Shown here piece by piece: positions 3,101-51,100 of a DNA stretch of 64,000 nt. Source of the DNA: Tubiluchus corallicola (taxonomy: Eukaryota; Priapulida; Priapulimorpha; Priapulimorphida; Tubiluchidae). Every line of letters begins with the position of its first letter. Position 1 is the first letter of the stretch. A program made the translations under genes and the position numbers. Location of the stretch: assembly GCA_030141605.1 (NCBI GenBank), contig JAQGDQ010000144.1:124001-188000 (forward strand). Reading direction: 5' to 3'. The notes beneath the pieces were generated by a model. It saw only the letters and a list, made by a program, of their open reading frames with translations, did no database searches and was not told the DNA's origin.

Positions 3101-6100
3101 ACATTTATGTTCTATCTTAAAATTTTGTGCAAACTAGTTGCGGAGAGCTGGTGGTAATGCTCTGCATGGTGTGCACTTAATCACTTTACTAGCTAGCCAA
3201 TCCATGAAGCCAGTAGACAGCCTGCTGTTGCAGCTTGCTTTACTTTTTCATCTGAGGAGATTAATATACACGGCAATGTTTGCTTGTGTGTGTCTAATTA
3301 CAATTAGAACAGGCTAGAATTTGTACATGGCTATACTACTGAAAATGTTTTTTTAGCCTTTTTTCAGTTTTAAATTTATTCACTTTCAACATAATTAAAT
3401 TAAACTAAACTAAACTTTTTCTCACCGAAATTTAAAGATATGTCATCATCGTTTGATATTCATAAAAAAGCAGGAGCTATTTTGGTTCTTTGTCAAGTTA
3501 TGTAGTAGCCTTTCATTTTCTTCTTATTAAAAGGTTGGCTTGTAAGTTGTAGGTCACATCATCTTGTTTTTATTCTGTTAACAATTTACTACTTCTGATG
3601 CCTTTTTTGTGAATTAGTTAAAACTTTATAGCCTTGTCAAATTTAATTTGCTCAGTTAGTTAATAATTTGGGCAACAATTGTTATAGTTAGACATCACAA
3701 AATGCTCTTTGTTTTTATTTGTTGCTTAACACTAACATAAAACTTGGTGACTATCCTACTTCAACTGTTAAAGGTAATGTATGCATGTTGTTAACGGGAA
3801 GCTGTTATCCGTTAACCAGCATCCAGGTAACTGGTATTTGAATCCGTTTTTGCAGAGATGGTGGTCGTTGGAAAATAGGAGTGGCAGGAGATGGTCCTGA
3901 CTTTGTTCACACTTGCACCATATCTGACATTAATCGGAAGGATCCTGGTGAATATAGGGCAGTGGCAAAGTCTAAAGCTGGTGCTGCCACCTGCAGAGTG
4001 AATCTGGTATTGGAAGGTAGGCATAAAGTTGTTCAACATTTAATTGAAATTACCAGATGTTAATTTACCATTCTGTGATCTTTGTTAACTGCTTTTAAGG
4101 TGTTCAATCTCTGTATTCCTAGTTAATAAACCCTTTTTCTTGATCATCAGCAACTTAAATTTGGGAAAAATATGGTTGACTAATATATCAGTTGCCACTT
4201 TTTCTGGCTAAATGAAATATTGCATCATACTAGCTCGATAGTCGATAGGCATCTAACAGTGTATTGTTTTATTAACTCGACATTCAGTGCTCTACAAAAT
4301 TGTTTTTTTTTTTGTAATAACAACAAAACAACAACAGACAACATTTACATCAGCAGCACATCATGAACCACCACCGTCAAGAACAACAACAACAACAGCA
4401 ACAACATGGTCAATGACAACAAGCAACAGCTTGTAACTGATTGTTATATGCTGGACAGTACACACAAGGCACTTATTATAACTATTACAGGATAGTAATG
4501 CAATGCAAAACAAATTCTATTATTATTATTATTGTTGTTGTTGTTGTTGTTGTTATTATTTATTATTATTATTATTATTATTATTATTATTATTATTATT
4601 ATTATTATTATTATTATTATTATTATTATTATTATTATTATTATTATTATTATATTTATTTTATTATTAATTTTATTGTCATTATTATAATATTTTTTAT
4701 CATAGGCAAACATTCTGTTAGCTGCTATTGTTTACCAAAGCAACAATTTTGTTTGAAAATTCCCAAAAAGGTATGTAGAATCCAATTTGAAAATCAGGAA
4801 TGCAAATAACCACTGTACTTTATGCTTTTTCAGAAACTGCTGATAAGAAGTTCAAGGTCAGTGAGATGAGGTCACCAGCATTTTTAGAGAAGCCTGCAAT
4901 TCGACTTGAAGGGCGTTGTTTGTTGCTTGAGTGCATAATGGAAGCTCATCCAATGCCAGATATTCACTGGTTTCATGACTCATTGCCCGTTCAGGACGGA
5001 GGCCGATATGCTATTAAGACTAACAAACTGAGAAAAGATGTTTATGCCTTAATACTCAGCATACAGGTTTGTGCTTAATTAATGAGTTAATTAAATGGTA
5101 GATACCTCAGTGACTGGTTGATTAGTTGACTGATTCCTATTAATAATAAGCCCAGTTAGTTGAGTCTTTTCCCGTTACCATGTGATATATTATGTATTAC
5201 AAATTTTCTGCAAAATTTTCTTCTGACCGTTTAAAATTTTATTTTATAGTATCTCTTATTAATCCTTATAATTGGTCACTGCTCTTTAGTAATATGTAGG
5301 TTATTTATGCAATGCATTATAACATTGATAACACTGACATTTTTAATTGTATTCTAGAAACCAAGTTTGTCTGATGCTGGCTCTTATCGATGTAATGCTA
5401 TTAATGAAGTTGGAGAGAGCAATGCTAATATTTCACTTAACTTAGAAGGTTTGTTTTAACTTGTTTATTATCCCCAATGACTGTCCATTTGAAGAGAATT
5501 TGATCTCATGTTATCACTGACTCTGCATAGTTTCTATCTAACATTGCTGAAGTGCATTGTACTGTTCTTGCAGAGGAAAAGAAAGATGAACCAGAGGAGG
5601 TAAAGACAGTAGAAGAAGAAGTTAAGGAAGAAGTTCAAGAAAAAGTAGAAGAAGTGAAGGAGGAAGCACCTGTTATAGGTAACATGTCTCGTTTGTTATT
5701 ATTCACCATGAAACTAATTAGCAGTGCAGGTACTTCAGTTATTTCAATATTGATTTTTTTGGCAAATATTAATGTTTCTTCTTAATTGAGAAATGGGTTC
5801 AAATGGCTATCCTGAACTGAAGTGCTGCAACTTTTGATAGCTATCGGCAACAGAAAATTTAAAAAGTTGTATCTTTTTTTACTGTTTTATTTTTGGATTT
5901 TGAGACAGTTGGGTAATTCCGCAATTATTTCTCACACAGTTATCTGCATGTATTACTTGGAATATTACAGAACCTCCTAGCAAACCAGACATACCTGAGA
6001 TCACTGACTGGAACATGGATTTTGTGGATCTGCAGTGGAAGCCACCGTCTAGCGATGGTGGTTCAAGCATTACTAGCTATATTATTGAGAAGAAAGATAA

Positions 6101-48100: not shown

Positions 48101-51100
48101 ACTTAAATGACAGTCTAAGGCCAAATAATGATTTCATTAGTCAACCAGGCTCCCTGGATTGCAAGGAAGCTAATTCAAACACTAATTTGTTTTTGTTACA
48201 GATCGGCCATCTTCTCCACGTTTACCACTAGATGTCTCTGATATCACAAGAGAATCGTGTGTTTTGTCCTGGACTGAACCAGATGACAATGGTGGAGACA
48301 AAATTATACATTACATTGGTACGTATGTGCCATGTAACAATAATATTTTTAAATCTGACCAGACCTTGCCTTTCCATTTTTTATAATATTAACAAATAAA
48401 TGTTATGCTTTTTATTAGGAGTGCTTTTAATTTGTAGCCATTGAATTGTAATTTTCTTTCATTAGTTGAAAAGATGGATTTAGCTAAAGGTAAATGGGAA
48501 CCAGCAGCTGAAACTAGCAATCTGCACACTGATGTAAGCCGTCTCAAAGCTAATCATGACTATAGGTTCAGAGTGAAAGCCGCAAACAAGTACGGTGAAT
48601 CGGAACCATTGACTACGAAAGATGCCATAACAGCCAAGAATCCTTTTGGTAATGCTTATACAGTGTATAATTCATTCTTATGACTTCTACATTTATTTTT
48701 GTATTGCAGTACAATAAAGTGATAAATAAATTTTAGATTATGAAATGAACAGCTCTATTTGAAATAAAACTTTTTGAGAGTTCTAACGATCATAAAAAGG
48801 TCAAAGGTTATTGGTACAAAACTGCGCATGGATAACATTGCACTTTTGTTGTTATTGTTATTGTTGTTGTGGTTGAAAATGGGTATTTATTTACACTGAC
48901 TACTTACGGTGTTTTGTCATGCCATTTTGGATAAGAGCATTCTGTTAGGCACATTAACACACAATTTAATTTAGCTATATATCAGCTTCTCTGATATTGA
49001 TATTCATTAAATTCTGTATAAAAACTTGCATTTTGATAACGGAATTGTGATGTCAACTCTGCATCCTTACATAGTTGTACGTAATGATACCAGTACTTGT
49101 AGTCTAGTACATGCACAAAGCAGATGTGTACCAGGCTTAATGTACCAATAATCTTTGACTTGCTGTCTTAAACTGCAACTGCACATGTGTGTAGTGGACA
49201 TCTGAAAAGGCTTGTTTCTTGATATAATGTTAGTTTAATGACCACTGCTGCTCTTTTCTTTAATATAAATATTTAGTTCTCAGAGTCACTTGTACATATA
49301 TGATGCACATTAGGTTATCGATAGTTGTTGAGATAATTTTTGAATTTTAATTTAATATTTTTTCTGCTTACTGTCCTTCCAGTAAAAATTGCAAAAGGAT
49401 TGCAAAACAGATGGGTAAACTCAAACCTTCACAGTTATCCTTTTCTCTTTTAGATGCACCATCAAAACCTGATGCACCTACTATTGTTGATTGGGATAAA
49501 ACTCACATGGATATAACATGGAAAGTGCCTAAAAATGATGGTGGAGCTCCAATTACAAGTTATAAGATTGAGAAGAAGGATAAATTTACCGGCTGGGTGC
49601 AAACTGTAGAAGTTCCAGGTAGCCTATTTTTGAATGATACGTTGCATGTTCCAATTGTTTTTAGTCTGATCTTTGATTGTTATTTTGCTACAAATATAGT
49701 TGTAACTTTCTTAGGCTAATATTTGATGGATTGACAAGGTAGCATAAGAATCATTACGATTTGCATTTTTAGTAGTAGGATGAGTTTATTTTCTTTATGT
49801 CTAATTATTGGCTTTTCCTGAAATTAACAAACTGGATATCCAGAAGAATGTTCCAAGTAATATTGTGTAATATTCTTGCATTGCATATGTTCTAGTCTGT
49901 ATTTGAATTCACTGTAGGTGATCAACTGAAAGTTACCATAAGTGGGTTATCAGAAGGCAACGAATATCAGTTCCGTGTTCTTGCTATCAACAGGGAAGGT
50001 CCCAGTCAACCTAGTGATTCTTCAGCTACGCAGTTAGCAAAACAGCGATATGGTAACGCTTACGACTTTTAACTTAATTTTTTAATTTGCTAATCAGAAG
50101 GCAACGAATATCAATTCCGTCTTCTACTTGTAGTGTTCTAGTTTCAGTTTGAAACTATCATACTAAAGTGGACAATATTGATTCTAAGTATTAGTTATGT
50201 ACATCTTTGAAATTTTGGTTTTTGCTTAATCAGTAACTTTAACTTAGGGAAATTTCTGAATTAGTGTTCTAAACAATACTTCACAAAATAATATTACAAA
50301 CTTATATTCTTTCAGTACCACCATTTATTGACCGTGCTCATATTAAGGATCAAACAATTGTCACGGGCAAAGAGTTGAAATTTTCTGTGCCAATTGGTGG
50401 TGAACCAGCTCCATCTGTTGAATGGTTTTTGAACAATAAACTAGTGACACAGTCTAAAAGAGTTGATGTGGAAACTTCACCTACAAATGCAACAGTACGT
50501 GCTTTTCATAACATACTTTCACAAAGTTTATTCAAGTTTTTGCAAGTTAACATTACAAATTTTGCTACTTATGAATTTCAGCTTTACTTTGCTTTGCAAA
50601 TCACCTTTGCTTTTACTTCTGATATTTGCTAGAGCCAAATTTGTTAAATTTGAAACTATGTTATTGTTGTTCATTTTATTAGATCACTATAAGGAAAACA
50701 GAAAGAAATGATGGAGGTCATTACAAGCTAACATTAAAGAACGAATCTGGGACTGAATCTGCTGAGGCAACCGTGAAAATAGTTGGTGTGTATTGCTGCT
50801 TAGTTTAATAATGATATTTTGCTGTTTCTTATTTAATTAATTATAACCCACTACTCAATTCTGCGTCATTTATTATCAGATATGTAGTACGCATTTTGAA
50901 CACGAGGAATGATATTTGAGCTGATGGTTCAAGTCAAGAGAAGTCTTAGTTAGGCATTTGTTTTCCATTTTCTTACATTGGCAGTGTCGAGGAACCCATG
51001 TACCTTGCTTCTCCATACTAATTTTTTTAGACTACTGCTGTTTTATTTACTCTTTTGCAAACACTTTGACTGACATGTGGAATAGTTTGCCTCACACATT

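Follow-up and report, generated by a model that had tools for sequence, protein, structure and literature searches.

A ten-domain super-repeat in a giant twitchin-like gene of the priapulid Tubiluchus corallicola

Introduction

The stretch of DNA analysed here, hereafter the window, is 64,000 nucleotides long (C1924:124001-188000, in an assembly of 343.5 Mb of the priapulid Tubiluchus corallicola) and consists of AT-rich animal DNA with a single gene on the + strand. This gene encodes a chain of immunoglobulin (Ig) and fibronectin type III (Fn3, or F) domains in which a unit of ten domains, F-Ig-F-F-Ig-F-F-F-Ig-F, is repeated with its positions labelled a to j, and by the sequence of its kinase, which is twitchin-class with a regulatory tail and a following Ig, it is a twitchin. 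Taken together, the evidence makes it probable that the gene is a giant paralogue of twitchin, bound to the thick filament, whose ten-domain unit arose by tandem duplication and for which we infer a role as repeating scaffold or template. A first-pass annotation of the window had recognized the repeat, but its interpretation was incomplete: the twitchin identity, the continuation of the repeat beyond the window and the apparent derivation of the block from F-F-Ig modules were all missed.

Two kinds of array serve for comparison, described here as in passages of the cited sources. Titin has super-repeats of seven domains in the D-zone (Ig-F-F-Ig-F-F-F) and of eleven domains in the C-zone (Ig-F-F-Ig-F-F-F-Ig-F-F-F, in 11 copies) (PMC12241362, PMC10665226), and its Fn3 domains fall into types A, B and C, giving units -AC-ABC and -AC-ABC-ABC (PMC10665226). 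The core of projectin, on the other hand, is [Fn-Fn-Ig] repeated 14 times (PMC3835035); Drosophila projectin counts 35 Ig and 39 Fn domains (PMC9886281), Mytilus twitchin 24 Ig and 15 Fn3 domains in 530 kDa (PMC12040844), and C. elegans twitchin measures ~7000 amino acids (PMC12063666). The contrasts drawn by the first-pass annotation, namely a period of ten against the seven and eleven of titin and against the plain F-F-Ig of projectin, agree with these descriptions. No paper on a ten-domain repeat was found in the open-licence literature, a scope outside which lie older subscription papers on the domain orders of titin, twitchin and amphioxus connectin.

A period of ten domains

The gene was read with a home-made exon-chain model, based on codon usage and on donor and acceptor matrices trained on the window, and 22 tiny or unsupported pseudo-exons were removed from the window model by hand. 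Domains were called with Fn3 and Ig profiles built from the gene's own exons. Coordinate 0 is the base preceding the window, and coordinates outside the window are given on the same scale. The cleaned window chain (95 exons, 5,332 residues) translates as one open frame without phase break or stop, and the stretch whose outermost exon boundaries are 5971 and 48648 holds 40 domains that read FIFFIFFFIF four times, in the order announced by the first-pass annotation. A Pfam check of unit 1, the one of the four so checked, returned seven fn3 and three I-set stretches.

The period is expressed in sequence as well as in order. At a lag of ten, domains of the window are of the same type in 30/30 pairs with a mean identity of 64.7%, while same-type pairs at lags 1-9 are 34.2-41.9% identical. 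Elevated values (~41%) occur at lags 3 and 7 too, which a unit composed of F-F-Ig modules would lead one to expect. The best match of a domain lies at the same position for 36 of the 40 window domains (the exceptions are c4, e4, i4 and j4) and for 119/133 of all labelled a-j domains of the gene, against a mean of 25 and a maximum of 42 in 1000 label shuffles. Exon lengths in units 1-3 agree at nine of the ten positions; at a, unit 2 deviates by a single codon. The candidate explanation that the period is really the 11 of titin with one Fn3 overlooked is ruled out: a search for missed domains in the 1,454 six-frame open frames of the window gave 112 hits, only seven of them outside the model and all of these with E > 2, so that no extra domain was found in any frame of the window and the period is ten.

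Further DNA of the contig (C1924, 84001 to 308000) was read with the same model. After hand-cleaning, the extended chain comprises 262 exons and 16,533 residues (1.83 MDa) over at least 182 kb; all these figures are lower bounds, since the fetched stretch stops at coordinate 184000, the model was cut at 181000 and the 3' end was not found. The gene has its own ATG at -1084, 1.1 kb upstream of the window, preceded three codons earlier by an in-frame stop, and the window covers roughly its front third. Four Ig domains and an acidic linker are followed by the ten-domain array, a seven-domain terminator unit, a second array, two seven-domain units, a C-terminal part, the kinase and an Ig, with which the modelled chain ends within the fetched DNA. 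Between the acidic linker and the kinase stand 158 called domains and one split domain (~159 Fn3/Ig), and the runs of F between Ig domains are 1,2,3, then 2,2,3 three times, a transition 2,2,2,3,3, repeated 2,2,3 downstream and finally 2,2,2,3,2,3,2.

The 'four copies' of the first-pass annotation are thus correct for the window, but they are only the part in view, since the second array holds eight further ten-domain cycles. Counted from h to the next g, four cycles lie in the window (h1 to g5) and eight beyond it (h6 to g14), 12 in total. Downstream of the window and before the C-terminal units, domain type is kept at lag 10 in 73/73 pairs with 51.9% identity, and identities at lags 20 and 30 are 51.6 and 50.5%. 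Along eight consecutive downstream g domains, each of the seven intervals is exactly ten domains long, and the next g (147625) comes again after ten. At nine of the ten positions, window domains are closest to the same position downstream.

Individual positions also carry their own signatures, some of which had been noticed before. DEPRAPGRP does open g in all four units. The C-terminal tags of c, d and h are present too, but the final G of AKDPFG, RFG and AKSRYG is a splice artefact: all 12 exons checked end in G with GT next, and the last exon base read together with the donor GT gives the codon. When spliced, c ends in AKDPF-G/D/D and AKLPF-D, d in ARF-V, ARF-V, VRF-A and ARF-A, and h in AKSRY-V in 4/4.

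A twitchin by its kinase, and its plain paralogue

The kinase with its tail and Ig matches C. elegans twitchin with 557 bits over 432 amino acids and Aplysia twitchin with 539 bits, against 248 bits for the best titin chain. Within the same genome, a paralogue on contig C215, read over 40 kb from the late array onward, has a kinase stretch 63% identical to that of the gene. Over 205-206 kinase residues, identities to the C. elegans and Aplysia twitchins are 60-63% for the gene and 60-67% for C215; the Aplysia values (63 and 67%, over ~205 residues) are such that the split of the two paralogues does not look recent. In the 40 kb read, C215 has a plain F-F-Ig array, then f-g-Ig-x-y-z and then the same order as the gene up to the kinase. 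N-terminal to the kinase, the gene itself has F-F-Ig modules with F runs of two and three between Ig domains, the strictly plain array being found in C215 only.

Two further observations concern the same genome. A third locus has twitchin-class kinase exons (G000:C967:1653-8852 and C718:2428-2532), in pieces 52-65% identical to the kinase of the gene. Six contigs (C2166, C1543, C1923, C1428, C1987 and C2175) carry intronless open frames of 1,084-2,131 residues with several fn3 matches each. Searches for COX1, mollusc haemocyanin and annelid linker gave no match; since the latter two families did not show up in any control genome either, their absence carries little weight.

Kinase, regulatory tail, following Ig and the F-F-Ig logic are shared with twitchin (C. 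elegans UNC-22, Aplysia, Mytilus) and projectin, and the classes of first and second F, together with the C-terminal order up to the kinase, are common to the gene and C215. Unlike the twitchins and projectin of the cited passages, the gene encodes at least 16,533 amino acids (1.83 MDa) with 12 ten-domain cycles and only four N-terminal Ig domains. It is called a variant twitchin partly because its size and number of domains exceed those of the described members, size not being a defining sequence feature. In lophotrochozoans, two titins with mixed features are described (PMC12063666), in passages that give no domain period; relatives of the gene may be among them.

Domain classes and origin of the unit

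Relationships among the Fn3 domains were examined with a quick tree of 127 domains (C215 supplying 21), with support by the Shimodaira–Hasegawa-like approximate likelihood ratio test (SH-aLRT) only; with a careful tree of 86 rows (49 domains of the gene, 21 of C215 and 16 of titin, the latter copied from PDB alignments); and with approximately unbiased (AU) tests on a reduced set of 50 rows. In the quick tree, f, c and j join the first-F domains of C215 (98), x and a few C-terminal domains being nested among them, and d, a and h join the second-F domains (F2) tw02, 04, 06 and 08 of C215 (96). Position g pairs with tw10 (97), the second F of the module immediately preceding the terminator of C215. 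The careful tree gives the same two groupings, g with tw10 (100/98) and a, d and h with the F2 of C215 (99/97). On account of these classes the unit reads F2-Ig-F1-F2-Ig-F1-F2-Ig-f-g.

The first-pass annotation had staked its repeat on the clustering of positions a-j in domain trees, and they do cluster, albeit imperfectly. The Fn3 position groups, C215 rows included, need 22 changes on the tree against 91.6 in shuffles, and the Ig position groups 14 against 33.9, Ig trees being weaker than Fn3 trees. By position, the Fn3 changes number one for g and j, two for f and h, three for c, four for d and five for a. It was also observed that a1 and a3 have the same 182+121 exon split as h8. The idea that h derives from the third F of the terminator was dropped: x, y and z go mostly with C215 domains of the same place, and h with F2.

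The neighbours of g bear on how the unit may have arisen. Every internal g (units 1-4 and 6-13) is followed by h, in 12/12 cases, and every g at an array end (units 5, 14 and 15) by Ig-x-y-z, in 3/3 cases, which is also what follows tw10 in C215. Probably the ten-domain unit arose when part of an ordinary twitchin F-F-Ig array was duplicated in tandem, the copied block beginning with the second F of a module and running through the special f-g pair with which the plain paralogue closes its array. Each internal junction would then set g beside an F2 domain (h), creating the F-F-F run, and the last unit of an array would keep the old neighbour. Such a model predicts that g-h appears as a new junction within the array and that the former neighbour survives where the array ends, which is the pattern seen. 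On the strength of the domain classes and of the neighbours of g, the triple-F run looks like a tandem-duplication junction, and the block seems to have been copied from an ordinary twitchin F-F-Ig array and not to be a design of unrelated origin. The presence of two terminator-closed arrays and one extra terminator unit suggests that larger blocks were copied too.

Units 1-3 are under purifying selection: the ratio of non-synonymous to synonymous substitution rates (dN/dS) between them is 0.11-0.14 with dS of 1.3-1.65, and position h is the most conserved (88-90%). Unit pairs 3-4 and 9-10 are saturated at synonymous sites. The synonymous difference between i1 and i3 is 0.19, versus 0.36-0.87 at the nine other positions of units 1 and 3, and 589 nt of h and i, intron included, are 87.8% identical between these units (14959-15537 and 38290-38878), which suggests late exchange or gene conversion.

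Alternative explanations

Super-repeats with position-specific Ig and Fn3 domains, 12 full cycles of them against the 11 C-zone copies of titin (PMC12241362), invite comparison with the titin A-band. The two differ in period, ten here with F runs 2,2,3 and 11 in the titin C-zone with F runs 2,3,3 in the cited passages. The giant size, the A-band-like super-repeats, the seven-domain units and a kinase lying toward the C-terminus would all suit a gene that belongs with titin, but the kinase with its regulatory tail favours twitchin by about 300 bits, only four Ig domains separate the start of the gene from the array and the model contains neither a long tandem-Ig or PEVK spring nor any other I-band part. 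The idea of a titin orthologue was dropped on the strength of the kinase, and we consider membership of the titin side altogether very improbable. A subtler proposal equates f-g-h with the A-B-C triplet of vertebrate titin as one ancient triplet: a super-repeat would already have existed in the ancestor from which titin and twitchin both descend, plain twitchin would have lost the domain after g, and the gene would have kept a variant, -AC-AC-ABC, of the titin pattern -AC-ABC-ABC. In its favour, the f-g-h triplet of unit 10 can be aligned over its full length (299 residues, 231 bits) with the A-B-C triplet A84-A86 of titin (types in PMC10665226); a grouping of g with titin type B is not rejected by the AU test (p 0.134); and the seven-domain units, in three copies (5, 14 and 15), have the order of the titin D-zone, Ig-F-F-Ig-F-F-F (PMC12241362), a likeness of order only. 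The maximum likelihood tree nevertheless puts g and tw10 on the F2 side of twitchin with titin B across a branch supported at 99/93, titin C domains fall in three places of the careful tree, none of them with h, and h sits in the F2 clade (97/87 in the 50-row set). In addition, the three array-end g keep the g-Ig order of the paralogue, so that a loss model needs further losses of h. An origin of the triple F independent of the titin triplet is therefore favoured by the domain trees, and the shared ancient triplet appears improbable to us.

It is also conceivable, though unlikely in our estimate, that the ten-domain order came about incidentally through segmental duplication, that its period has no function and that the protein is just a longer tethering twitchin. 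Plain twitchins function without such units, and the traces of later exchange between units 1 and 3 fit this idea; however, the order is kept over eight downstream cycles despite the synonymous divergence or saturation given above, with low dN/dS wherever it is measurable. Several observations weigh against the tandem-duplicated twitchin that we prefer, or against its use as a ruler. The AU tests that leave room for g with titin B do so as well for h with titin C (p 0.063), h with g (p 0.10) and y with titin B (p 0.224), and trees of single domains rest on ~100 columns and have many weak forks. Position a of units 1-3 groups with downstream h, and window h resembles downstream a more (54.1% on average) than downstream h (46.5%), so that the two arrays do not run in strictly matching registers; over the whole array, terminators included, type at lag 10 is kept in 93% of pairs, because the terminators shift the register. 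A second f-g pair may lie upstream of the portion of C215 that was read. Finally, the chain has two phase breaks and a few incomplete domains outside the window, its splice choices and alternative exons are model-based and its length is a minimum.

Possible function in the thick filament

Judging from its kinase and array, the product is inferred to be an A-band protein. At the titin spacing of 3.89 nm per domain (PMC7427331), one unit would measure ~38.9 nm and the array from linker to kinase ~0.6 µm (computed values). The extended chain could lie along the myosin filament with an equivalent set of contacts every ten domains (~39 nm at this spacing), and would serve as a repeating scaffold or template for thick-filament proteins over ~0.6 µm. 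The four-stranded thick filament of Drosophila has a rise of 145.4 Å and a twist of 33.81 degrees (PMC10573858), from which a track repeat of 38.7 nm is computed, with the proviso that the symmetry of the host filament may differ. The agreement between ~38.9 and 38.7 nm is suggestive only, and a filament repeat close to 43 nm could be matched only at a larger spacing per domain. In titin, the 11-domain block corresponds to the repeat of 43 nm in vertebrate filaments.

The first-pass annotation had envisaged an independent thick-filament ruler. Independence from the titin super-repeat is the part favoured by the Fn3 tree, within the AU limit on g stated above; the step to a ruler is conjectural, and this counts against it. 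In its full form, that is, a titin-sized twitchin that evolved separately as a ruler with the length of its ten-domain block matched to the track repeat of a four-stranded invertebrate filament, the proposal seems doubtful. If true, the number of domains per unit would be tuned to filament symmetry.

Layout of the window

The features of the window are collected in Table 1. An open stretch in the intron between the two exons of d5 (54742-55204) was picked up by the exon model and then dropped; by eye it resembles a fragment of a reverse transcriptase of a long interspersed nuclear element. Two introns share a non-coding repeat (17464-18084 and 34654-35271; 637 aligned bases, 86.2% identical), perhaps a mobile element. 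Beyond the window, at 163942-164428, the Fn3 before the kinase has a charged, Ser-/Arg-rich insertion of ~40-60 residues, whereas its counterpart in C215 is without it.

Table 1. Domains and units of the gene in and next to the window (F, Fn3 domain; lower-case letters, positions within the unit)
Feature	Coordinates	Strand	Content or support
Ig 1 and start codon	-1084 to 139	+	Pfam I-set above cut-off
Ig 2	1242-2253	+	Pfam I-set above cut-off
Ig 3	2846-4016	+	partly modelled, not called by own-exon profile
Ig 4	4834-5448	+	Pfam I-set above cut-off
Short acidic E/K/V-rich linker from Ig tract to repeat array	5574..5678	+	
Unit 1	5971..16838	+	a F 5971-6476, b Ig 7210-7755, c F 7869-8165, d F 8294-8590, e Ig 8816-10144, f F 10890-12458, g F 12865-14164, h F 14704-15131, i Ig 15255-15530, j F 16046-16838
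Unit 2	18315..27535	+	a 18315-18809, b Ig 20193-21242, c 21849-22145, d 22356-22652, e Ig 22825-23219, f 23310-23853, g 24316-24757, h 25053-25805, i Ig 26652-26927, j 27075-27535
Unit 3	28376..39548	+	a 28376-30074, b Ig 30319-30945, c 31615-31911, d 32895-33191, e Ig 33500-33951, f 34049-35983, g 36610-37714, h 37828-38462, i Ig 38596-38871, j 39121-39548
Unit 4	39777..48648	+	a 39777-40200, b Ig 40363-40644, c 40773-41072, d 41816-42118, e Ig 42516-43158, f 43631-44049, g 45380-46234, h 46786-47088, i Ig 47279-47560, j 48202-48648
Unit 5, truncated, no h	49454..60017	+	a 49454-50052, b Ig 50316-50785, c 51402-52479, d 52775-54415, e Ig 56431-57534, f 57951-58848, g 59100-60017
Array terminator Ig-F-F-F	60181..63575	+	tI 60181-61059, x 61440-61843, y 62432-62856, z 63133-63575; same order follows g in C215

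Implications

The idea of a molecular ruler for the thick filament rests so far on one lineage, that of chordate titin, and a classical ruler has been argued to be impossible in nematodes and insects, the A-band titins of which are short (PMC12063666). A titin-sized twitchin with a period of its own would be a natural second experiment on how muscles measure their filaments, and the number and length of its units predict a spacing of ~39 nm over ~0.6 µm along each half filament. The gene also shows how a super-repeat can start, since what appears to be the duplication junction is still readable next to an unexpanded paralogue.

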